Source: Bdellovibrionota bacterium (lineage in GTDB: Bacteria; Bdellovibrionota; Bdellovibrionia; Bdellovibrionales; JAMPXM01). Taken from it: a DNA stretch of 44,008 nt. The stretch spans positions 1 through 44,008 of the forward strand of contig CAUJGS010000070.1 in NCBI GenBank assembly GCA_963170185.1, given 5' to 3'. Each line of letters starts with the position of its first letter. Within the stretch, counting starts at the first letter, position 1. Below the pieces are notes generated by a model. The model saw only the letters and a program-made list of their open reading frames with translations. It did no database searches and was not told the DNA's origin. A program made the translations under genes and the position numbers. This document shows, in pieces, positions 30,220 through 44,008 of the stretch.

Positions 30220-30999
30220 ATGAACAGTTCAGCACTCAAAAAGTATAAGGACGAACCCACGCGATTGAACTCGAAAGAGCGCGAAGAGTTGATCCGTGAG
30301 TACACGCCACTTATCAAGTTCATTGCGCAGAAAATCGCCGTGCGTCTTCCTTCGAATATCGAATTAGATGACCTCATTTCAAGTGGCGTCATCGGTTTGA
30401 TGGACGCGATCGAGAAGTACGATCCGACTCGCGACAACAAGTTTAAGACCTACGCTGAATTCCGTATTCGCGGTGCGATTCTCGATGAGCTTCGCGCGCA
30501 AGACTGGGTCCCGCGCTCGGTTAGAGACAAAGCCAAGCTGCTTGATAAAACGGTCGCGGATCTCGAAGCGGAGCTTGGACGTCAAGCCACAGATGAAGAG
30601 GTTGCTTCGAAGCTGAATATGACGCTCGACGAGTTCTTTGAACTCGTGAATCAGGTGCGTCCGGTTTCTGTTCTTTCAATCGACGAGATCGCGTCGTTCT
30701 CAAACGTCGACAAAAAGTCGTTGATGTCGCTTTTAGAGGACGTGAAAGTCGCAAACCCCTATATCCAGCTGAATCTCAAGTCAGTGAAGGATGTTATTAC
30801 GGGAGCGATCGAAGAGTTGCCAGAAAGACAGCGTCTTGTGCTTTCGCTTTATTACTACGAAGACCTCAACCTCAAAGAGATCGGCAAAGTTCTTCGTGTA
30901 ACCGAAAGTCGTATTTCACAGCTTCACGCTCAAGCGATCAGCCGCTTGCGCGCAAAACTCACGACCTTCTTCAAAGAACAAAACAACGAAGCGAGCTGA
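30220..30999 (+). CDS. fliA: RNA polymerase sigma factor FliA (sigma-28)
   Basis: The protein (259 aa) belongs to the FliA/WhiG group of sigma-70 factors that transcribe late flagellar genes. Region 2 is LIKFIAQKIAVRLPSNIELDDLISSGVIGLMDAIEKYDPTRDNKFKTYAEFRIRGAILDELR, the region 3 start is WVPRSVRDKAK, and region 4 is LPERQRLVLSLYYYEDLNLKEIGKVLRVTESRISQLHAQAISRLR. ATG 30220 follows GAGGGA. It is separated from flhG by 142 bases, in which I see no convincing promoter, so it may be co-transcribed. It is convergent with rpoH. No flgM is in the window. Confidence 0.95.
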   Translation: MNSSALKKYKDEPTRLNSKEREELIREYTPLIKFIAQKIAVRLPSNIELDDLISSGVIGLMDAIEKYDPTRDNKFKTYAEFRIRGAILDELRAQDWVPRSVRDKAKLLDKTVADLEAELGRQATDEEVASKLNMTLDEFFELVNQVRPVSVLSIDEIASFSNVDKKSLMSLLEDVKVANPYIQLNLKSVKDVITGAIEELPERQRLVLSLYYYEDLNLKEIGKVLRVTESRISQLHAQAISRLRAKLTTFFKEQNNEAS

Positions 31000-31013: not shown

Positions 31014-32225
31014 TTAGCGCCTCTTGCTCTCGAGGCGCTCTTCTAAGATCTTGCGGATCTTTCCCATCAAGCGGTTCTCCATTTGGCGTACGGCTTCGCG
31101 TGTGACGCCGTACTTTTCGCCGATTTCCTGAAGAGTGAGGGGCTCATCCGAGAGCAGGCGATCTTCCAGGAGTTCTCGCTCGCGCTCATTTAGAGAGTCT
31201 TTCAGGTCCTCAATTCCTTCTTGAAGAAGAGACAGCATTTCCGCCTGCCCCATCTGCTCATCGATCGGAGTCTCATCTGAGGATTCAAAGTCGAGCAACG
31301 TTGTCTTGCCGCTGTCGTCGACTGTCGTTTGCAGCGAAACATCGCGGCCTTGCAGGCGCTGGCTCATGGTTTCGACGTCTTGTTCGCTCACGCCAAGACG
31401 GCTTGAAAGCAGCTGCACGCTGGGCTCTTGCCCCATGGACTCAAGCAGTTCTTTTTCCTTTTGAAGGCGATAAAAGAGTTTTCGCTGCGACTGCGTGGTT
31501 CCGATGCGAACCATCGAGTACTGGCGCATGAGGTAGTCTTGGATATAGCCGCGAATCCACCAGACGGCGTATGTGATGAGACGAACGCCCTTGTAGGGGT
31601 TGAACTCACGGACAGCATGCATGAGCCCGACGTTTCCTTCTTGAATCAAATCAATTAGGCGAGCACCGAATTTCGAATATTCTGCCGCGACCTTCACGAC
31701 GAAGCGAAGGTTGCTCGTCACAAGCATTTCGGCCGCACGCTTGTCTCCGGTCTCACGGTAGCGCGTGGCGAGCTCCTGTTCCTGCTCACGCGTGAGCAGG
31801 GGGTACTTACGGACTTCCGCCATGTAAAGCGCGACGGGATCCGCTAGCGCCAACGCTCCAGATTTTGTTTTGGAGGCGGCGTCGGATTTGGAATCAAGGC
31901 TCTCGGTAAGGGCGGGTAGGTTTGACTCCGCCAAGTCGTCGTCAATGAGATCTGTTGGCGTCTCGCGGTCGAGGGCGGAATCGGCTTCCACATGGATGTC
32001 CGACTCGCTATCGGCGTCGTCTTCGATCTGGCCGGCGCTGCGCTCTTTCCAGCCGCGCGCTTCCCAGACATCTTTTTGGCTTTGTACCTGTTCAGCGTAG
32101 TCGGTCGAACGGTTCGGGGAGCTCGGTTCAATGATTTCGGCTTCGACGACGCGTGCGGACCCCTTCGCACTCTTCGTGCGAGGAGTGTTTTTTTTGGGAG
32201 CTTTCACGTCTTTCGACTTCGCCAC
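31014..32225 (-). CDS. rpoH: RpoH-type (sigma-32) RNA polymerase sigma factor with an acidic N-terminal extension
   Basis: The conserved part (about 125-400 of 403 aa) has region 1.2 (DPVALYMAEVRKYPLLTREQEQELA), region 2 (SNLRFVVKVAAEYSKFGARLIDLIQEGNVGLMHAVREFNPYKGVRLITYAVWWI), and region 4 (LTLQEIGEKYGVTREAVRQMENRLMGKIR). TTQSQRKLFYRLQKEK at about 243-258 corresponds to the RpoH box (QRKLFFNLR), which marks heat-shock sigma factors. Unlike the usual 285-aa RpoH, there is an N-terminal extension of about 125 residues: first basic (KSKDVKAPKKNTPRTKSAKG), then strongly acidic (DDADSESDIHVEADS). It might be an inhibitory or regulatory segment, which is inference. The start lies 11 bases after the upstream small gene, so they form one operon. 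Confidence 0.88.
   Translation of the reverse strand: MAKSKDVKAPKKNTPRTKSAKGSARVVEAEIIEPSSPNRSTDYAEQVQSQKDVWEARGWKERSAGQIEDDADSESDIHVEADSALDRETPTDLIDDDLAESNLPALTESLDSKSDAASKTKSGALALADPVALYMAEVRKYPLLTREQEQELATRYRETGDKRAAEMLVTSNLRFVVKVAAEYSKFGARLIDLIQEGNVGLMHAVREFNPYKGVRLITYAVWWIRGYIQDYLMRQYSMVRIGTTQSQRKLFYRLQKEKELLESMGQEPSVQLLSSRLGVSEQDVETMSQRLQGRDVSLQTTVDDSGKTTLLDFESSDETPIDEQMGQAEMLSLLQEGIEDLKDSLNERERELLEDRLLSDEPLTLQEIGEKYGVTREAVRQMENRLMGKIRKILEERLESKRR
31016..31039. terminator. Stem-loop across the end of rpoH, between convergent rpoH and fliA
   Basis: AGCGCCTC pairs perfectly with GAGGCGCT (8 bp, 8-base loop). It lies in the last codons of rpoH and 17 bases after the fliA stop, so it could end either transcript. 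There is no T-tract. Confidence 0.35.
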
Positions 32226-34682: not shown

Positions 34683-34956
34683 TTTCTGTCGCGCACGCGA
34701 GCGACAGATTCCGTGGTCACGACGAGTTCTACTTCGTGGCCGGTTTTTTTCTTTTTGAGTTCTTGTAACTGCTCGCTATTCAAATCGGACTTTTTTATTT
34801 CATAGACGAGGCTCTTGGTTTCGATGAGGTATAATTCCTCCGTGAAACCCTTTAGCTTTCCGCGAATCGTAAAATGCCCGAGGCAAACGAAGACTGAGTC
34901 CACAAGATGAGCGTGAATGCAAAACAGGCTGTGAAAACGGCGGTGGTTTTTTTCAT
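34679..34956 (-). pseudogene. Small secreted protein with a one-base frameshift
   Basis: Two frames together make one sensible protein. The first starts at ATG 34956, whose ATGA overlaps the stop of the upstream gene. It encodes a perfect signal peptide, MKKTTAVFTACFAFTLILW, then TQSSFASGI, and soon hits TAA. The second frame carries the mature part (FTIRGKLKGFTEELYLIE, KKSDLNSEQLQELKKKKTG, then HEVELVVTTESVARVRDRN, stop at 34679). Adding one base to the four-base homopolymer at 34871-34874 (AAAA on the plus strand) joins them as ...FASGIFTIRGK.... The long open frame starting at 34966 reads nonsense over the signal-peptide region. It is either a frameshift mutation, a phase-variable tract (short for that) or a sequencing error. 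Function is unknown. It overlaps the aspS end by 4 bases. Confidence 0.75.
34685..34708. terminator. Stem-loop just after aspS, inside the end of the convergent gene
   Basis: TCTGTCGC pairs with GCGACAGA (8 bp perfect, 8-base loop), starting 2 bases after the aspS stop codon. It forms the last codons of the small gene on the other strand. No T-tract follows on the plus strand, so it is a weak terminator or stabilising hairpin. Confidence 0.45.
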
Positions 34957-35573
34957 CGGCTGACACCTCGTGGTGCAGAACCGCCTCGTTGTTCGACTTG
35001 AAAGCCGTCGGAGTCAGCCGCTGTGGGTGGTGCCGCCAGTACTTTCAAGGGTTTCACTTTCCAATAAAGCGACGAGCCTCGACGGTTGTTCACGCAGTCG
35101 TTTACCTTTGGGCAGTCGGGGTTGCCGTTAGAGGTTTTGTCGCCCAGACATTGAACGGAAGTTTGTGTGATCTCAAGTCCGGTAAGACTGCCACTTGCGG
35201 CCAGCCGGATGACCGTTCGGTTGATTTCGTCGTCCGTTAGTTTTGACCAATCCGACTTATCCAGCTCTTTTAAAACGGCCGCTTTCAATTTCCGGGTTAC
35301 CGGTGTGCACTGAGCCGAATAGAAGCAAAAGATTTTTTTGGAGTCCGAGCGTACCTCGATATCCTGTTTCGGGTCATCGCATTGAACGACTCCAGCCTCC
35401 GAATAGAACGAACCATTCATGACCATTGTTCCGCAAGCGAACTCAGCCAAGGAACTGGCTTTCGCCGTCGAGACGATGGAAACCATCGGTAAACTGAGTA
35501 GCAGAAGTAAAGCCGGCCGGATCGGGTCAAGCGAAGCATGAGTGCACCTACCGCTGAAAGTTGTAAATACCAT
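34953..35573 (-). CDS. Cys-containing exported protein of unknown function
   Basis: The protein (206 aa) has a signal peptide in the first 40 residues (hydrophobic core PALLLLLSLPMVSIVSTAKA). The mature part has about eight Cys spread in pairs (ACGTM, VQCDD, FCFYSAQC, SVQCLGD, PDCPKVNDC), suggesting disulfides in the periplasm or outside. A charged helical middle (LKAAVLKELDKSDWSKLTDDEIN) precedes a basic, Pro/Gly-rich tail. No domain is recognised. The stop overlaps the start of the frameshifted small gene by ATGA, so both belong to a coupled two-gene cassette of secreted proteins. Confidence 0.55.
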   Translation of the reverse strand: MVFTTFSGRCTHASLDPIRPALLLLLSLPMVSIVSTAKASSLAEFACGTMVMNGSFYSEAGVVQCDDPKQDIEVRSDSKKIFCFYSAQCTPVTRKLKAAVLKELDKSDWSKLTDDEINRTVIRLAASGSLTGLEITQTSVQCLGDKTSNGNPDCPKVNDCVNNRRGSSLYWKVKPLKVLAAPPTAADSDGFQVEQRGGSAPRGVSR

Positions 35574-35708: not shown

Positions 35709-35793
35709 AAGTCATGAGAGCGGGGCAAGGCGCATGATGCGCTTTAAGAATCCGCCAGTAGCAACGATTCGATTGAACCAACAGGAGGTTGGG

Positions 35794-36240
35794 ATGGAAA
35801 AGATCAGCGGTATTTTACCGAAATCCGCACGAGTGTCATCGGTCGATATGAAGGACTCTGCACCAGTGCGGCCAGGTACGCCTTCGTTTGGTCGACCAGA
35901 AGGAGTTTCGTCGCTTCGCGAAGCGGCGATCGGGCAAACGGCTTCACGCGCAACAAAGATTCAATCCGAACGCATGGATTGGAAAACCAAAGATATGCAG
36001 CAAGCGGCAATGGCGCGCGAGCTTTCAGACAATTTCTTTCGCTCCCGGGTGGCTCAACCGGAAATCGCCGAATCAATGGGCAACGTAAGCGAGCCAGTTG
36101 CGACTTACAACGCCGAAGCGGTTTCAACACCCGTGACGTATGCGCCGATCAGCGGCTTTGCGAACACGGATAGCGAAGCTGCTAGTGAGGCTCCAAGCGA
36201 GCTTTATCCGCGTGGCAGTTTTATCGATGTTCAGGCCTGA
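35794..36240 (+). CDS. Small protein of unknown function, possible FliA-regulon member
   Basis: ATG 35794 (148 aa) is preceded by the strong site CAGGAGG; the frame is open further upstream, from 35734. There is no signal peptide or membrane segment. The N-terminal motif MEKISGILPKSARVSSVDMKDS, then VRPGTPSFGRP, looks conserved in style. A charged middle (QSERMDWKTKDMQQAAMARELSDNFF) is probably helical. The C-terminal third is Ala/Ser/Pro-rich and probably disordered. I recognise no domain; the length and disordered character would suit a secretion chaperone or a structural export substrate, but nothing shows it. It ends 4 bases from the convergent cpaF end. Confidence 0.6.
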   Translation: MEKISGILPKSARVSSVDMKDSAPVRPGTPSFGRPEGVSSLREAAIGQTASRATKIQSERMDWKTKDMQQAAMARELSDNFFRSRVAQPEIAESMGNVSEPVATYNAEAVSTPVTYAPISGFANTDSEAASEAPSELYPRGSFIDVQA

Positions 36241-36243
36241 TTT

Positions 36244-37383
36244 TCACGCCTGGTAAACCGTCGAGAAACAGAATCCCATTTCTTCCAAAGAGGCGACTTT
36301 GCTAATCGATGCAAGTCGCCTTTTTCCGTCTTTCGTTCGGTCGACGGTGACGATGTAGTGAATGCTCGAATGGATCAGGGCTCGAACCGTGGCCGCTGTC
36401 CACTGCGGGGCTCCCATTTGCACCAGCATTTCTAATCGGAGCATGGCTTCACGGGCGTTTGCGGCATGCAGGGTTCCCCAGCAGCCTTCGTGGCCGGTAG
36501 CGAAGGCCATCAAGAGATCCTTTGCCTCGGTGCCGCGGACTTCGCCCATTACCAGGCGATCAGGTCGCATGCGGAGAGATTGTTTTAAGAGATCCCCTAA
36601 GCCGATCTCCGTGTCGTCCGCATGTCTTGCGGTTTTGGTGAGAAGTTTGAGACTTGCCGGAGTGGGAACGGGAATCTCATCGGTGTCCTCTAGTATCAAT
36701 GCGCGTTCATGCTCGGCAATTTCGTTGAGTGCCGCGGAAAGGGCGGATGTTTTTCCGGACCCAGTGGCACCGATCACCAAAACATTTTGTCGTTTAGCTA
36801 TGAGCTCTCGAACTTGCTGAATCCCGCGCTCATTTGCCCATTCCGAAGCAAGCAGCTCTTCTAGAGTCCAGCGACGATTCCGAACTCGGCGGAGTGTGAG
36901 GCAGGGGAAATCGCCGACGATGGGAGAAGCCACGACATGAACACGGAAATCGGACCAGCGCCCGTTGGCAAACGGTTTGGTCTCATCCACATTTGCTTTT
37001 GCCGCTCGTAGAACACGATTGAAGCAGCTACGGTATGTGATGCGATTGAGAAAGCGGTCGCCTAATCGTTCAAGTCGGCCACCGCGCTCCACCCAAATCG
37101 AGTCGGGAGCCATCACCAGAATTTCAGTTACGCTTTCATCGGTTTGAACTCTTCCAAGTGGGCCAAATTCAAAAAACTCTCCGACGATTCGGGCGCGACT
37201 CGGCTCATCGAGATTCTCGAGGCATCGTTTTAGGCAGTTGTCCAATGCGACATCACGTTCGCGTTCAAGCCGATCGAGGATCGGGGTGTGTTTGAGGCTT
37301 GGGATCTCTTGAATCGCCTGAAGAGTGCGTTCTGCGTGCTGCAAGAGATCCGCCGACTGAAGGGAGCTGAGTGTAGTTGTCAT
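36244..37383 (-). CDS. cpaF: CpaF/TadA-type secretion ATPase
   Basis: The protein (379 aa) is a cytosolic hexameric ATPase of the type II/IV secretion superfamily that powers Tad (Flp) pilus assembly or retraction. Walker A GATGSGKT is at 205-212, the Asp-box region is LILEDTDEIPVP, the Walker B region is RMRPDRLVMGEVRG (about 271-284), and the His box is GTLHAAN (303-309). The N-terminal CpaF domain (TEILVMAPDSIWVERGGRLERL) is present but shorter than in Caulobacter CpaF. The gene overlaps the secretin gene by 4 bases. No TadB/TadC membrane proteins or pilin follow here, so the rest of the system must lie elsewhere. Confidence 0.9.
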   Translation of the reverse strand: MTTTLSSLQSADLLQHAERTLQAIQEIPSLKHTPILDRLERERDVALDNCLKRCLENLDEPSRARIVGEFFEFGPLGRVQTDESVTEILVMAPDSIWVERGGRLERLGDRFLNRITYRSCFNRVLRAAKANVDETKPFANGRWSDFRVHVVASPIVGDFPCLTLRRVRNRRWTLEELLASEWANERGIQQVRELIAKRQNVLVIGATGSGKTSALSAALNEIAEHERALILEDTDEIPVPTPASLKLLTKTARHADDTEIGLGDLLKQSLRMRPDRLVMGEVRGTEAKDLLMAFATGHEGCWGTLHAANAREAMLRLEMLVQMGAPQWTAATVRALIHSSIHYIVTVDRTKDGKRRLASISKVASLEEMGFCFSTVYQA

Positions 37384-38732
37384 TGTGACTCCCCTGAAGC
37401 GCCGGGAAAACTGATCTCGGGTGTTAAAAAAATCACGAGTTCGGTGACGCGATTGAGAAAGTCGTGGCTTTCAAAGAGAGTCCCGAGGATGGGAATGGAG
37501 CTGAGAAGTCCGAGGCCTGAGAGCGATCGTCCTTCTTCTCGTTTGATCAGCCCCGAAAGAGCCACGGTCTGTGTGCCGGCAAGGTTAAACTGGGTTTCAA
37601 TGCGATTCGAAGTGACGCCCGGAATGTTGGACTTTGATGGCATGGAGCTGTCGATTGCCGAAATCTCGGTGATGAGCTGAAACTTCAGTCGTTTCAGTCG
37701 ATCAGCACGGGGTTGCACATGAAGGGTGATGCCGTACTTTTTCCACTCGACGTTGCTGGATCGGTAACTCGATGTCTGAATTGGAATTTCTCCACCTGCA
37801 AAAAACTTGGCTTCACCACCGGAGCGACAAAGCAGATTGGGCATCGCGAGAATGCGGCCTTCACCACGCTGCTCGAGATCTTCTAGCTGAGCCGTGATGG
37901 AGCCGACATCAATCACCGTGGGCTGGCCACCGAGGACAAAAAAGTCAGGCCATTTGATTCCGAGCTTTTGCACGGTTGAGCGGCGTACTTCGGCGATGAC
38001 GACTTGAGTGCGGATCATCGGCTCGAGATCATTGATCGAAGAAGAGTGTTCGATTCGGATTCCAAGAGTTGAAAGTTGAAGACTATCCTGCGCGGACATC
38101 TTTTCGCGGTCTTTGTTCGTAACAAGTTGAGGACCATTTTTCTCGATGTGAAGGTAGTCGCCGGCCCACGCGAGATGGCGAAGCTCTTGATTGATAGCTT
38201 GCCTCAGCTTTTCTCGCGGCAAGACCTCGGCTTGCAGCTGCCATGGAATCTGATTGGCCCGGGCGATCTCGGTCAGTATTCTCCAGTCTTCCATTCTTAA
38301 AAGTTCACCGCGTACGACGAGAACGGGTAACGCGGAAGTATCCAAAAACAGCCCGCGCGTTGTTTTTAGAAAGTCAGAGAATCGTTTGGCCGTTGCCGCT
38401 GTTTTGCGGTCGGTGACGTAGACAGTCTGGTCGGGTGAGGCGGTTTTCGATGCGAGAAAGCGTAGTTTCGCCCGTCCGATTTTTTTACCGGTAAGAATGA
38501 CGCTTGCGCCGACCTTGCGGGCTCGAACCACTCCGCCATCGCTGATATGAATTTTGGCCGATTGAAGAAGATCCAGTTTGATGGACTCTCCGATTCCCAA
38601 GATCTGAGATCCTTCAGCCGGTTTGTTTGGCTCCGGCGCGACGGCCTTTGCTTGGAATCCGAGCAAGAGAAAAGAAAGGCCGATGAGAAAGAGAAGTAAC
38701 ATCTGGGTCGTCGAGAGTTTTTGATGGCGCAC
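37380..38732 (-). CDS. cpaC: CpaC/RcpA-type secretin
   Basis: This outer-membrane secretin of a Tad-type pilus has an N-terminal membrane or signal segment (MLLLFLIGLSFLLLGFQAKA). Then come the BON/pilus N-domain (LLQSAKIHISDGGVVRARKVGASVILTGKKIGRAKL) and the secretin core (GIKWPDFFVLGG, ILAMPNLLCRSGGEAKFFAGGEIPIQTS). The C-terminus is NLAGTQTVALSGLIKREEGRSLSGLGLLSSIPILGTLFES, followed by TELVIFLTPEI. I choose GTG 38732, because CGGAGG lies six bases upstream; ATG 38768 has no ribosome site. It overlaps cpaF by 4 bases. At 450 aa it is slightly short for CpaC but appears complete. Confidence 0.88.
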   Translation of the reverse strand: MRHQKLSTTQMLLLFLIGLSFLLLGFQAKAVAPEPNKPAEGSQILGIGESIKLDLLQSAKIHISDGGVVRARKVGASVILTGKKIGRAKLRFLASKTASPDQTVYVTDRKTAATAKRFSDFLKTTRGLFLDTSALPVLVVRGELLRMEDWRILTEIARANQIPWQLQAEVLPREKLRQAINQELRHLAWAGDYLHIEKNGPQLVTNKDREKMSAQDSLQLSTLGIRIEHSSSINDLEPMIRTQVVIAEVRRSTVQKLGIKWPDFFVLGGQPTVIDVGSITAQLEDLEQRGEGRILAMPNLLCRSGGEAKFFAGGEIPIQTSSYRSSNVEWKKYGITLHVQPRADRLKRLKFQLITEISAIDSSMPSKSNIPGVTSNRIETQFNLAGTQTVALSGLIKREEGRSLSGLGLLSSIPILGTLFESHDFLNRVTELVIFLTPEISFPGASGESQ

Positions 38733-38871
38733 TTGAGTCCTCCGAGGGGTTGCTTCGGAGGACTGCATTGAGCACGAGCTGCGCCGTGGATAGGTGAGTG
38801 GTCATCAAGGTCTGGTTCTCGCTGAAGTGTCCGTAGGCCGTAAGCCGGACATCGAGATTTTTTGCCGAGAA

Positions 38872-40002
38872 CTAGTTTCCGGCGTCTTGGTCGCGACCAA
38901 GTAGGAAAGAGACCAGCACAGATTTGTTTTTGGATTCAATCTCGAGCTTCGAGTGATGAAGCTTCAATAAGGCGTTGCAGATGCTCAATCCCAATCCTGT
39001 GCCGATGCTGTGATTGAGTGTGTTTTCATTCAAGGTAAATGGCTTAAGCAGAGATTCGACTTTCTTGGGGTCGAGCTTGGCGCCATTGGCTGTGTGATTC
39101 TCGATCGACACGCGAAGCAGACCATTGCCTTGGGAATCGGCTTGAACCTTTACTTCCGAGTCTTGGTCGGCGAATTTCGCGGCATTGTGAAGCAGACGGC
39201 GCATGATATTGCGTATGATTTTTTCGTCGGCAAAAAACTTTTGGTTTTCAATTTGAAAGCTCAAGGTCACATTTCTGTCGTTGAGCAGTTTTTGAATCGG
39301 CTCGGTAATAAGCGAGTCATTGATCGTCGATTTGGAAGAGATCGAGCGCAGGTCAAGCTTGGTCTGCTGGGTTTCGGCCGAAACGAGTTCCAAGGAATCG
39401 TTGATCATGTCTTGCAAACGAAGCGCTGCGGTTTTGATGCGGCTCAAATAGCGTTGTTGGTCGAGATCGAGTTTTGTTTCGGCCAATAAGTCCGTGAAGC
39501 TTAACATCGTCGTTAGAGGCGTCTTTAACTCGTGGTTCACCAAAACCATGAACTGATTTTTGGCTTGATCCAAAGTCTGAAGCTCTTCGAGAGCGGCTTG
39601 TAGCGCCTGGTTCTTTTCGCGCAGCTCTTGTCCGAGTTCATAGCGTTCGACAGCTTTGTCCACTGTGTTGACGAGATCCACGGGGTCCCATGGTTTGTTC
39701 ACATAGCGATAAATCTGACCGCTGTTGATAGCTTCGATGACGACTTCAATGTCCGCGTATCCGGTGAGAAGAATGCGAATCGCATCCGGATGTGTCTTGA
39801 GTGATCGCGATAAAAACTCCACGCCTGTCATCTTCGGCATACGCTGGTCGCTGATGATCAAAGTCACCCGATTTTGGTCGAGAACCTTAAGTGCATCCTG
39901 GCCCGAGGTCGCCTTTAAGACCTTGTATTTCGTTCGGAGCAAGCGCTCGAGGGCATCAACGTTATCAGCTTCGTCATCAACGCAAAGAATGGTGTGCTTC
40001 AT
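38872..40002 (-). CDS. Response regulator-histidine kinase fusion (REC-HisKA-HATPase)
   Basis: The protein (376 aa) has an N-terminal receiver domain (1-118) with acidic pair Asp9/Asp10, phospho-acceptor Asp52 (ISDQRMPKMTG) and conserved Lys103 (VNKPWDP). A coiled-coil linker (about 118-150, ELREKNQALQAALEELQTLD) leads to the HisKA domain with His157 in VNHELKTPL. The HATPase domain has the N box (IMRRLLHNAAKFA) and G box (GTGLGLSIC). There is no membrane segment, so it is a cytosolic kinase probably controlled by phosphorylation of its receiver. It has the same orientation as cpaC-cpaF but is about 140 bases upstream of it, so a functional link is only suggested by position. Confidence 0.9.
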   Translation of the reverse strand: MKHTILCVDDEADNVDALERLLRTKYKVLKATSGQDALKVLDQNRVTLIISDQRMPKMTGVEFLSRSLKTHPDAIRILLTGYADIEVVIEAINSGQIYRYVNKPWDPVDLVNTVDKAVERYELGQELREKNQALQAALEELQTLDQAKNQFMVLVNHELKTPLTTMLSFTDLLAETKLDLDQQRYLSRIKTAALRLQDMINDSLELVSAETQQTKLDLRSISSKSTINDSLITEPIQKLLNDRNVTLSFQIENQKFFADEKIIRNIMRRLLHNAAKFADQDSEVKVQADSQGNGLLRVSIENHTANGAKLDPKKVESLLKPFTLNENTLNHSIGTGLGLSICNALLKLHHSKLEIESKNKSVLVSFLLGRDQDAGN

Positions 40003-40334
40003 GAAGTGAACATAGTGTAGGATTTAAACAGAGGAACCTGCAATACGGTTTCCTAGGAAAGCACAGTTCGACATCCAGGGAGGGAGGTCGGAGACTGAAG
40101 CATCTCGCCACTCGCAGGGCCATTTTTGGAATCTGTGATCGAGGTTTCAATCCCCATCTCTCGACGGAAGTCGAGTCTATGCACTCAAGTGTCGAATTTT
40201 TTGACGAATCGACTCGATCGAACTGGACCTGTATCGAGGTGATTCAAGTTGATCGTCGAAAATGTCGACACGGTTGAAGTGAAGGACCGTTTAAGTAACG
40301 AACGCTTCGGCTTCGAGGCGCTCAAGGAGATGAC
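40003..40334. other. Intergenic region dense in TCGA sites, upstream of the Gly/Met-rich gene
   Basis: No gene is visible in these 332 bases. They contain twelve TCGA tetranucleotides between 40068 and 40316, eleven within 201 bases. A perfect hairpin CTCGAC/GTCGAG with a GGAA loop (40160-40175) and an AGGAACC/GGTTTCCT imperfect hairpin (about 40032-40054) are also present. I find no good sigma-70, sigma-28 or sigma-54 promoter. The strong ribosome site AAGGAG (40325-40330) for the next gene closes the region. Confidence 0.45.
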
Positions 40335-42683
40335 ATGAAGCTCAGAGCATATTCAGCGCTCTTGATGGCATTCATCATGATGATTTCGTCCGCGTCTCAC
40401 GCGCAGTGGGGTTACGGAATGTACGGCGGCATGCAGATGTGTCCATACGGATACGGTGCGGCGTCTGGTGCAAGCGATGAAGAAGATGAGATCTCGGAGC
40501 TGACAGAAGAGCGTCGTGAGCTTCGCCGTGAAAAACGCGAAATCGAAAAAACGTTCCGCCAAATCGAGCGCGACCTTGATTCCATGCGTGACTCTGTCAA
40601 CAATGTCGTGAAATCAAACTGGGCGAGAGTGATTTTAGAGCACATGGACAAAGGCATGAACTGTTCGGTGTGCGGAGTTCAAGGGCGTCCTTCTGCGCAA
40701 GCTCCAAGCGGGCCACCGGCAGGTACGGGGCTTCGTCCTCCAACGACCGGTCCTGTTCTTGGTCGTCCTTCCGGCGAAACAACGCGCGAAACAGTCACTA
40801 TCGTTGAAGAAGTTATCGAAACTCCTCCGGTTGCTACTCCGACGGCGACGCCAGTGCCTCGTCCAACAGCGCGCCCAACGGCACGCCCGACAGCTCCTCC
40901 AATTCGCATCACTCCTCCAACGGCGACTCCTGCTCCGACTCCGGAATACATTCCGGTTCGTCCAGTTCGCCCTCGTCCAACTGCGGCACCTCGCCCAAGC
41001 TCGACACCACGTGGTGGCGCCTCGCTTGAGAGCGATGGCGGCGGTCGTATGCCGGCGAGTGTGACAGGCGATGAGTCACAGATGTCGCGAGTTCCTAACC
41101 GTGGCCCAGCAAACGAAGTGTCAGCGGGCGCTCGTGTTTCTGGTCAGCAAGCGGATTACTCGGGCTTTGAAGACTTTGGTGCGGACTTTGGCGATGAGCA
41201 GTTCTCGGCGGATGGCTCGCCAACACTCTGCAACCCGGCTCACCAACCATACACGATGAACGCGTGGCGCGCGATCTGTCGTGGTGAAGGCAAAATCGAT
41301 CAACGCGTCTGCCGCGACCGCTACTTCCAAAAGGGCGGTTCAAAGCCTGCGGAAGTGAGCGCTTGTGCTCGAGCACTTGATCGCTACCGTCGTCTCACTC
41401 AAGAGATGACTAAGGCGCAAAATCGTTTGGCAAAAATCGAAGACGAGATCTCGTCGATCGGTTACCGCATTGGCGACATCAAGATGGAACGCCGTCTTGA
41501 TCGCGACATGGAAGCGGATTGCCCAGCGGGTGACGGAAGCTGTTATGAGCGTGGTTCATCGCGCTCGAGCCGTTCGAAATCAAAAGGTCCCTCGCTTGGA
41601 CAAACACTCTTGGCAGTTGGTCTTGACGCGCTTTCAATTGGTGGTTCGATTTACCTAGGTAAACAAGCCAACGAATGGAACGCACGTACAGGGCATCAAG
41701 CCGTTCCTTACGTCGCAACAGGCTTGGCTGGCGGAGCTTTCTACCCGTATCGTACAGCCGGTCTTTATGGCGGTATGTATGGCGGTGTAAACGGGGGCTT
41801 CGGATGCTCACCTTCGATGGCGGGCGGCGGCTTCAATATGGGCCCTTACGGTATGATGGGTCCATACGGAATGGCCGGTGGTATCTACGGCGGTATGAAC
41901 GGTCCGTTCGGTTATCCAGGAATGTCGGGATATCCCATGTACGGTGGCGGTATGTATATGCCGGGCGCCGGTCCTTGGGGCATGAACGGTCCTTGGGGTG
42001 TCGGCGGATGGCCGGGTGGTTATCCAGGCATGGGTGGTTTTGTCGGCGGCATCGCGGGCGGAATCGCTGGAGGCTTCGCAGGTATGGCGGGCATGGCTGG
42101 AATGGCCGGTATGGCTGGAATGGCCGGCGGCTATATGGGAATGCCAGGCTACATGGGTGGTATGGCAGGCATGGCCGGTATGGCCGGTATGGCCGGTATG
42201 GCTGGTGGCTTTGCTGGAATGCCGGGCTTCGCAGGTATGGCTGGAATGGCCGGCGGTTTCGCAGGTATGGCGGGCATGGCAGGCATGGCCGGAATGGCCG
42301 GCGGCTACATGGGAATGCCTGGCTACATGGGTGGCATGGCCGGAATGGCTGGCGGTTTCATGTCTCCATGGGGAATTGCAGGCGGCATGGCCGGTGGTTT
42401 CATGACTGGCGGTATGATGGATCCAACGATGATGCAGCAGCAGTACCAGATGCAGCTAGAGATGCAGCGTCAGTACACCGAACAAGCGGCCTCACGCATG
42501 CGTCTGTATCAAAGCTTCATGTCCGAGTACATGCAGTTCCAGATGAAGTGGAATCAGTATTTCGGAAGCGGTTCTTCGGGCGGAAACTTCTATTACAATC
42601 CTAGTTTCGGTACGAACCCGGTTACCGGTGGCGGCTCGGGACCTGGAACGGGAACAGGCACGACTCCAGGTCGTACGCGCTAA
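40335..42683 (+). CDS. Large secreted Gly/Met/Ala-repeat protein with coiled-coil and Pro/Thr-rich regions
   Basis: The protein (782 aa) starts at ATG 40335 behind AAGGAG. The order of parts is as follows. A signal peptide ends SSASHA. A Gly/Tyr/Met patch follows, then an acidic-basic coiled coil (about 50-95). Next are a CSVC pair near 110 and a Pro/Thr-rich linker (about 115-235, PTARPTARPTAPP). A Cys-containing domain (about 290-350) is followed by a second coiled coil (about 350-385). A glycine-zipper-like hydrophobic segment (LLAVGLDALSIGGSIYLG) leads to about 240 residues (460-700) dominated by Gly, Met, Ala, Tyr and Phe. Within these, MAG triplets run up to five in tandem and a 58-residue unit repeats. 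A Gln/Met-rich helix and a Gly/Thr tail close it. I recognise no family. A structural, adhesive or matrix-like extracellular role is conceivable. A strong terminator follows. Confidence 0.7.
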   Translation: MKLRAYSALLMAFIMMISSASHAQWGYGMYGGMQMCPYGYGAASGASDEEDEISELTEERRELRREKREIEKTFRQIERDLDSMRDSVNNVVKSNWARVILEHMDKGMNCSVCGVQGRPSAQAPSGPPAGTGLRPPTTGPVLGRPSGETTRETVTIVEEVIETPPVATPTATPVPRPTARPTARPTAPPIRITPPTATPAPTPEYIPVRPVRPRPTAAPRPSSTPRGGASLESDGGGRMPASVTGDESQMSRVPNRGPANEVSAGARVSGQQADYSGFEDFGADFGDEQFSADGSPTLCNPAHQPYTMNAWRAICRGEGKIDQRVCRDRYFQKGGSKPAEVSACARALDRYRRLTQEMTKAQNRLAKIEDEISSIGYRIGDIKMERRLDRDMEADCPAGDGSCYERGSSRSSRSKSKGPSLGQTLLAVGLDALSIGGSIYLGKQANEWNARTGHQAVPYVATGLAGGAFYPYRTAGLYGGMYGGVNGGFGCSPSMAGGGFNMGPYGMMGPYGMAGGIYGGMNGPFGYPGMSGYPMYGGGMYMPGAGPWGMNGPWGVGGWPGGYPGMGGFVGGIAGGIAGGFAGMAGMAGMAGMAGMAGGYMGMPGYMGGMAGMAGMAGMAGMAGGFAGMPGFAGMAGMAGGFAGMAGMAGMAGMAGGYMGMPGYMGGMAGMAGGFMSPWGIAGGMAGGFMTGGMMDPTMMQQQYQMQLEMQRQYTEQAASRMRLYQSFMSEYMQFQMKWNQYFGSGSSGGNFYYNPSFGTNPVTGGGSGPGTGTGTTPGRTR
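42071..42416 (+). repeat. Coding repeat: GMA triplets and a 174-bp direct repeat
   Basis: Within the Gly/Met-rich gene, codons for Gly-Met-Ala repeat in runs of two to five. A longer unit beginning GGYMGMPGYMGG occurs at 42126 and again at 42300, exactly 174 bases (58 codons) later. Synonymous differences between copies (for example tatatg versus tacatg) show they are not a fresh duplication. Such a tract can expand or shrink by slippage or recombination. Confidence 0.8.
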
Positions 42684-42766: not shown

Positions 42767-43867
42767 TCACCATCCAGCGCGGTGCACTGGTTGCACGGCT
42801 GCAGTCTCCCCTTGGCGACCGCGGTTATGTGAAATGATGAGAGCCGTCAGCGCAATACCGCCTAGGGTGGCCCACATCCAAGGCTTGATCTTCGGAAGTG
42901 GCTCAAGGGGCTTTTGGTCACGAAACGGATCCGGGTCAATTTGTTGAACGCCGAACTTTTTACCGAGAGTAGTGGCTTCGCTCTGTGTTCCCTCGTTCAG
43001 ACCGCCTTGGAGCAAAGTGGCCCGACATTCCTCTTTGTCGACGGCAATCAAGCGCCCGACTCGCGAAGTGAAGTTGAAACTCGCGATACAGGCAGAGGAG
43101 TCCGTCATCAATGGCCGAGAGACTTTGAGGCGATTAGAGAGTTCGAGATCTTTTGTCAGAGGGCGAACTGAGTTCTCGATCGGCCAGTGACTATTGGAGA
43201 TACCGGTTAGGCGAACTTCGAGGGAATCACCACCGGCGGCTTCGTAGATCAAGGGAAAGCGGCCCTGCGAGCGGTCATACCAGTGACCATCGACAAAGAG
43301 GCCCGCGATTTCATTTGGAACCTCGGAAAAAGAGACCCAACGAACAGTGATTCGACTTTCCATTTCCGCGAGCTCAACTGGAACCGAAGGAGCCAAAGAG
43401 TTCTTTGAGTATTTGAAATGATTCAAAGAGATGGCGGCTTTGATAAGGTGGGTCTGTCTTCTTTCGGGTCGCATACGAGCCAAGCGCTGATGAAACTCGT
43501 AGAAAGCCAAGCGAGCTTCGTCATTCCAGATCGATTCGGATTCTAGCTGAAGAAAAGCTTCAATGGCCGCTGTCGATCGGTTTGAGTTTGAGAGGGATTG
43601 AAACTGAATCCATTCTTCTTGCGCGCGAATGAGGCGAGACTCGAAGGTCGCCATGAGATCACGTGAAGCGGTGCCGTTATGTCCGACCGCCTCCGAGAGA
43701 GTCATCATGCCCATAGCTTGAGCGAGAGAAGACAGCTCCGTCGTGTCGTATGGAGACGGCCGGGATTGAATTGCGACGCCTATGTCATGGATTCGGCTTT
43801 CCTGTGCGATTGCCGATTGAGCGAACAAAGTCATGCCGAGCAGTGGGATTAAAAGTGAATGCTTCAT
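42767..43867 (-). CDS. Exported protein of unknown function with a C-terminal membrane anchor
   Basis: ATG 43867 behind GAAAGG gives 366 aa; an upstream in-frame ATG at 43927 overlaps what looks like the preceding gene. It has a signal peptide MKHSLLIPLLGMTLFAQSAIA. The N-terminal half of the mature part is mostly helical (MATFESRLIRAQEEWIQF, ARLAFYEFHQRLARMRPE). The middle is beta-rich (SRITVRWVSFSEVPNEIAGLFVDGHWYD, DSLEVRLTGISNSHWPI), similar in feel to a PEGA-like sandwich. Two Cys sit at SACIAS and EECRAT. A membrane helix near the C-terminus (PWMWATLGGIALTALIISH) is followed by a short basic tail. No named family is recognised. Confidence 0.6.
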   Translation of the reverse strand: MKHSLLIPLLGMTLFAQSAIAQESRIHDIGVAIQSRPSPYDTTELSSLAQAMGMMTLSEAVGHNGTASRDLMATFESRLIRAQEEWIQFQSLSNSNRSTAAIEAFLQLESESIWNDEARLAFYEFHQRLARMRPERRQTHLIKAAISLNHFKYSKNSLAPSVPVELAEMESRITVRWVSFSEVPNEIAGLFVDGHWYDRSQGRFPLIYEAAGGDSLEVRLTGISNSHWPIENSVRPLTKDLELSNRLKVSRPLMTDSSACIASFNFTSRVGRLIAVDKEECRATLLQGGLNEGTQSEATTLGKKFGVQQIDPDPFRDQKPLEPLPKIKPWMWATLGGIALTALIISHNRGRQGETAAVQPVHRAGW

Positions 43868-43892
43868 AAAAGCCTTTCTTTGAATGGGCGAA

Positions 43893-44008
43893 CTAGTTTG
43901 AGTCTGCAATTCCGTCTTCGTGAACAAGCTCGAGGCGGATGATGGCCGGGGAGAGGTCCTGTCTCGTGCGGCGCACCCGAGCGATGGTCTTAGGAGCCGT
44001 CGGCCTCG
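43893..44008 (-). CDS. C-terminal end of an unidentified gene (runs off the window)
   Basis: On the minus strand one frame is open from the window edge to a TAG at 43893-43895. It reads a plausible protein end (PTAPKTIARVRRTRQDLSP, then AIIRLELVHEDGIADSN). The stop lies 25 bases before the ATG at 43867, a typical operon spacing. Only about 37 codons are visible, so no function can be given. Confidence 0.45.
   Translation of the reverse strand, partial: RPTAPKTIARVRRTRQDLSPAIIRLELVHEDGIADSN

Follow-up and report, generated by a model that had tools for sequence, protein, structure and literature searches.

The open reading frame at 40335–42683 (+) of the window, the whole 44,008-nucleotide stretch analysed here, encodes a 782-residue Gly/Met-rich protein of an undescribed and probably exported family. 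A functional partnership between this protein and the secretin module encoded next door is likely from gene order and co-occurrence, and that partnership is better supported than any specific role for the protein. The best explanation of the data, to which we lean with some reserve, is that the probably exported protein works with the divergently encoded receiver-histidine kinase (RR-HK), secretin and CpaF-type ATPase module.

Domain layout of the Gly/Met-rich protein

The reading frame starts with ATG, is preceded by a ribosome-binding-site-like sequence and was present as the initial annotation had described it. The features of the protein, with the evidence for each, are as follows.

40335–40403 (+): signal peptide, residues 1–23 (putative cleavage between SHA and Q), without a lipobox Cys; read by eye, with hydrophobic N-termini aligning across the family
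40404–40445 (+): conserved motif at the mature N-terminus, QWGYGMYGGMQMCP, with C36 invariant in 30 sequences; alignment
40479–40652 (+): coiled coil 1, residues 49–106, pLDDT about 75–93; predicted structure
40725–41024 (+): Pro/Thr-rich linker, residues about 131–230, well developed mainly in its own family; alignment and composition
41229–41543 (+): Cys-rich domain with coiled coil 2, residues 299–403; alignment and predicted structure
41673–41807 (+): NAxxG..PY...GLYGGxxGG..GFGC segment, residues 447–491, with C491 invariant in 30 sequences; alignment
41757–42413 (+): uncharged Gly/Met/Ala/Tyr repeat region, residues 475–693, 58-residue period; composition and repeat analysis
42423–42566 (+): Gln/Met-rich helix, residues 697–744, pLDDT about 46–68; composition and predicted structure
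42567–42680 (+): Gly/Ser/Thr/Pro tail ending in Arg (C-terminal Arg in 30/30 sequences); alignment

The secretion signal proposed earlier was recovered by eye as a cleavable-looking segment, MKLRAYSALLMAFIMMISSASHA followed by Q, and the mature N-terminus is Gly-rich. Predicted helices at residues 49–106 and 338–394 bore out the two coiled coils, and the Pro/Thr linker was likewise present. A hydrophobic stretch separates the Cys-rich domain and coiled coil 2 from the NAxxG..PY segment. The protein contains 10 cysteines, and six of them, C36, C491 and, within the Cys-rich domain, C326, C344, C396 and C403, are invariant among the 30 aligned sequences, as is the C-terminal Arg. Consistent with the earlier view, this conserved architecture with its conserved cysteines makes the protein modular rather than simple low complexity. 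The Gln/Met-rich helix and the conserved C-terminal Arg had gone unmentioned. Taken together, these features support a protein that would be exported and structural.

In the full-length AlphaFold model, generated from six sequences, the helices alone were confident; mean pLDDT was 44 and fell to about 33 in the Gly-rich region. VIA-align of this model returned weak matches only (Z 5.2 or less) and was uninformative. A second fold, of residues 292–500, was unusable (pLDDT 47).

Distribution and conservation of the family

The protein had no Pfam family match, no NCBIfam match above the curated cut-off (only weak ones far under it), and a best E of 0.017 when the family profile was searched against PDB sequences. 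A protein search gave matches in 41/60 related genomes. When 291 genomes of the phylum were compared with the 30-sequence profile, 89 gave a match: 86 belong to the same order, 2 to a different family of the class, and 1 lies elsewhere. The family is present in most Bdellovibrionales and rarely detected in the rest of the phylum. A contig scan with the core alignment gave 7 named MAG loci, each carrying the label Bdellovibrio, Bdellovibrionaceae or Bdellovibrionales.

The family retains its N-terminal motif, Cys/coiled-coil core, GWP...FGC...FGYP segment, Gln/Met-rich helix and, mostly, the C-terminal Arg, which is absent from the diverged members L074, L075, L078 and L084 (ending in Y, L, F and P). 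L075, in which the repeats are nearly missing, matches the core profile at 99% probability. A second paralogue was found at L043 6947–8740 of genome G039, which we take to be B. bacteriovorus HD100, its gene order being consistent with the published Bd numbers; the orthologue itself is at 3220194–3222347 of the G039 contig, on the minus strand. The second paralogue lies away from the secretin module and stands alone, with a gene of probable L,D-transpeptidase-like type on one side and a response regulator on the other. A divergent 560-residue frame in G062 had a similar look and was rejected as a homologue at a profile comparison probability of 2.6%.

Linkage to a divergent secretin module

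The protein proved to be real, and its frequent linkage to a secretin/CpaF/RR-HK operon was not visible to the first reading. The neighbouring genes are listed below.

38872–40002 (−): response-regulator receiver and histidine kinase (RR-HK), divergent, a conserved neighbour; domain search and comparison of loci
37380–38768 (−): secretin, one of four in the genome; domain and structure-profile matches
36244–37383 (−): CpaF/TadA-type ATPase; domain and profile matches
35734–36240 (+): short conserved gene of no family, convergent with the ATPase, its membership in the module uncertain; comparison of loci

Across many families the protein gene is divergent from the RR-HK/secretin/CpaF-ATPase operon in the inspected loci, the arrangement being judged where the fetched locus extends far enough. 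In L034 the divergent position next to the protein gene is taken by the secretin, and RR-HK was not found; in L041 RR-HK adjoins the protein gene and the secretin and ATPase lie elsewhere. When positions were compared by hand, 47 of the 60 family-positive genomes of the order had the secretin on the same contig, no more than about 6 kb away. The other 13 comprise L078 (G243), which also shows the arrangement, 4 genomes with the two genes within about 10 kb and 8 in which they are far apart or on different contigs (e.g. G029 and G018). The same arrangement was found in L083 and L084, whose two genomes belong to a different family of the class.

Among 71 genomes of the order, 60 carried both protein and secretin, none the protein without the secretin, 8 the secretin without a detected protein, and 3 neither (Fisher p=0.003, with phylogeny ignored). 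Two of these 8, G208 and G232, have a diverged homologue at the same place by profile match. The protein at that place in G056 resembles the one of G243 and is probably a diverged family member; the homology of the G243 protein is less secure because its profile match spans only the Gln-rich helix and tail. The loci of G040 and G234 end at a contig edge. The operon in G017 and G024 is flanked by cell-division genes, without such a protein there: ftsQ/ftsA, plus ftsZ in L072, occupy the place of the Gly/Met gene (L070 2074–7791 and L072 875–8161). G252, with no clear picture at this place, is the last of the 8. Because it is usually encoded back-to-back with a secretin and motor, the protein is probably a partner or cargo of the machine and not a stand-alone product, while the adjacency may mirror shared timing rather than contact.

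Several other features of the region were recorded. The gene at 35734–36240 contains a patch of about 40 residues conserved across several families. A frame at 34953–35573 (−) encodes 206 residues of no family with a signal-like N-terminus, Cys and a terminal Arg (...APRGVSR). A FliA-like sigma factor, 75% identical to the G039 copy, lies near the module at 30220–30999 (+), as does a sigma70-family gene at 31014–32225 (−); fliA bd3318 and bd3314 of HD100 seem likewise placed. The convergent gene on the other flank (42767–43927) shares only about 24% identity among members of the genus, beyond which it was undetected in the compared loci. Rfam gave no match in the window.

A conserved promoter-like element upstream of the gene

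A candidate promoter element conserved across loci precedes the gene.

40244–40268 (+): promoter-like element TCAAG-N15-GTCGA, 91 bp upstream of the ATG; comparison of loci

The form T[CTA]AAG-N15-GNCGA was found 61–132 bp upstream of starts at 25/37 loci tested, and the strict form TCAAG-N15-G[TA]CGA at 19/37 against a background of 0.027 per kb and strand, with a pattern picked after a first look at the same sequences. The binomial value of 3e-35 is overstated, since related loci were treated as independent, the background was counted on the DNA under test, and the figure entered for the loci was approximate. None of the five paralogue-2 genes tested had the element upstream, and the second paralogue of G039 lacks it.

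Read as TCAAG-N16-[TA]CGA, the element resembles the attack-phase FliA consensus TTAAG-N16-CCGATA (PMC3627812), with T or A in place of the C of FliA sites; CCGA was absent from all 25 element sites. In two genomes, the strongest FliA-type candidates ahead of several flagellin genes carry N15 in front of CCGA, and the element differs from these candidates in spacing and in the first -10 base. A regulon search, in which ten places with other copies of the element were inspected, found no regulon; most copies were inside reading frames.

Comparison with known systems

The module resembles Tad (type IVb/Flp) systems. CpaF is the closest match of its ATPase (E 4e-51 to 8rkd), the C-domain of its secretin matches several secretins including RcpA (8odn, E 9e-16), and a secretin with a CpaF/TadA-type ATPase is a combination shared with Tad and type IV pilus loci. 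Unlike in Tad, a TadB/C platform, prepilin peptidase, Flp pilin, RcpC/CpaB and TadZ were not recognised beside it. No match to the platform protein PF00482 was found for the module on contig C70; those of the same genome are on C36, C7, C89 and C134. That genome has four secretins, a fuller Tad cluster on C89 and a TadC-like gene on C134. Since no inner-membrane platform gene adjoins the module, its ability to secrete appears questionable. The Gly/Met protein was also considered as the pilin and rejected: it has 782 residues, an AxA-type signal peptide and a Gly-rich mature N-terminus, and is not a short protein with a class III leader and a mature N-terminus that begins as a hydrophobic helix.

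In B. bacteriovorus HD100, bd3306 ('pilQ') and bd3307 ('cpaF') are probable orthologues of the module secretin and ATPase, as judged from their position near the sigma factor bd3314 and fliA bd3318, the published gene order (PMC3818213; PMC12622784), and L016 and L045. Published work treats bd3306/bd3307 as pilus genes, and no mention of Bd3302–Bd3305 was found in the Bdellovibrio papers searched.

The composition of the protein recalls abductin, the scallop hinge elastomer, which has Gly/Met-rich GGFGGMGGGX repeats, a Cys pair and random-coil elasticity (PMC13052691). Gly/Met-rich uncharged repeats and Cys are found in both; abductin is an animal protein, and the likeness is one of composition only, with no shared core or ancestry shown.

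Alternative roles

The likeness to extracellular elastomers such as abductin (PMC13052691), the separate promoter-like element of the gene and the position of the Bdellovibrio paralogue 2 away from the module would all suit a protein that stands alone as a surface matrix, adhesin or envelope layer, reaches the surface by another route and neighbours the secretin operon only through co-expression. However, the linkage persists across families at identities near 30%, no genome has the protein without the secretin, and the gene on the other flank is not conserved beyond the genus. We regard a free-standing protein as rather unlikely.

We are equally doubtful that the protein is a periplasmic or outer-membrane part of the machine, such as a pilotin-like component or an alignment or anchoring scaffold, that is not exported past the outer membrane. 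Its usual place beside the module, its conserved N- and C-terminal ends and its coiled coils would be expected of such a part, but the fast-varying length and composition of the Gly-rich region are more typical of exposed proteins, and neither Pfam nor NCBIfam matched it to a Tad alignment or pilotin family.

Composition and origin of the repeat region

The unusual composition reported at first was borne out: residues 451–695 are 37% Gly, 18% Met, 14% Ala, 7% Tyr, 7% Pro and 4% Phe, and there are zero charged residues within 475–693. Methionine is less constant among relatives. The repeat regions measured are 30–52% Gly and from 4 to 35% Met; those of L007, L010 and L029 are of a Gly-Leu type (Leu 18–19%, Met 5–6%), the diverged L071 and L078 have Gly-Phe-Pro repeats with a whole-protein Met content of 0.9–1.2%, and the diverged L075 has almost no repeat. 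As read from these sequences, what stays constant is Gly combined with nonpolar residues, a pattern shared with elastomeric proteins, and Met is not the conserved feature; a metal or oxidant role would therefore be unlikely as a general function. The suggestion that this domain uses its Met to bind copper or other metals, or to scavenge oxidants, is thus poorly supported and, to our minds, very improbable. Met is dense in the repeat of this species, but relatives replace it by Leu, Phe or Pro, the repeat can nearly vanish, and the conserved neighbours include no metal-handling gene.

MAG triplets occur up to five in tandem, as initially noted, with 19 in residues 581–700; shuffling of these residues (5000 trials) gave a mean of 2.3 and a maximum of 8, and never a run of five. 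The 58-residue repeat has an exact period, with copies beginning at an interval of 58 residues. An alignment of two copies over 32 residues gives 97% identity for the protein and 83% for the DNA; 15/32 compared codons differ, and because 14 of these 15 differences are synonymous, the repeat is under selection and not an assembly artefact. This synonymous divergence and the excess of MAG over shuffles disfavour recent slippage or misassembly. Moreover, the same architecture occurs in homologues from single-contig genomes and therefore does not stem from assembly, the origin that the initial annotation had said would overturn its claim. Thus, a translated low-complexity sequence or artefact without function, to which the very skewed composition and tandem DNA repeats might point, is exceedingly improbable given the conserved cysteines of homologues in one-contig genomes, the synonymous bias, the ribosome-binding-site-like sequence and the conserved upstream element.

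Proposed role

We infer that the protein is disulfide-braced and fibrous, and a substrate or structural partner of the Tad-type secretin module. A Sec signal peptide would carry it to the periplasm; the core would fold with disulfides and oligomerise by its coiled coils; and the protein would pass through, or anchor to, the secretin ring. The uncharged, length-variable Gly-hydrophobic domain could then serve, on the cell surface or within the envelope, as a flexible layer or fibre of elastomer-like character. Present data fit cargo and scaffold alike. A surface fibre or cargo is a reasonable possibility, and an internal envelope scaffold a more tentative one; the matrix, adhesion or envelope role first proposed would be compatible with these results. 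It is conceivable, if unlikely, that the module is a distinct Bdellovibrionota export or surface-assembly machine that shares or dispenses with a platform, with this family as its dedicated substrate and an elastomer-like surface material.

These data connect a protein family, widespread in the order but undescribed, with an orphan secretin and its motor that the model predator B. bacteriovorus also has. If the link is true, a Tad-type machine would handle an elastomer-like protein in place of a pilin.
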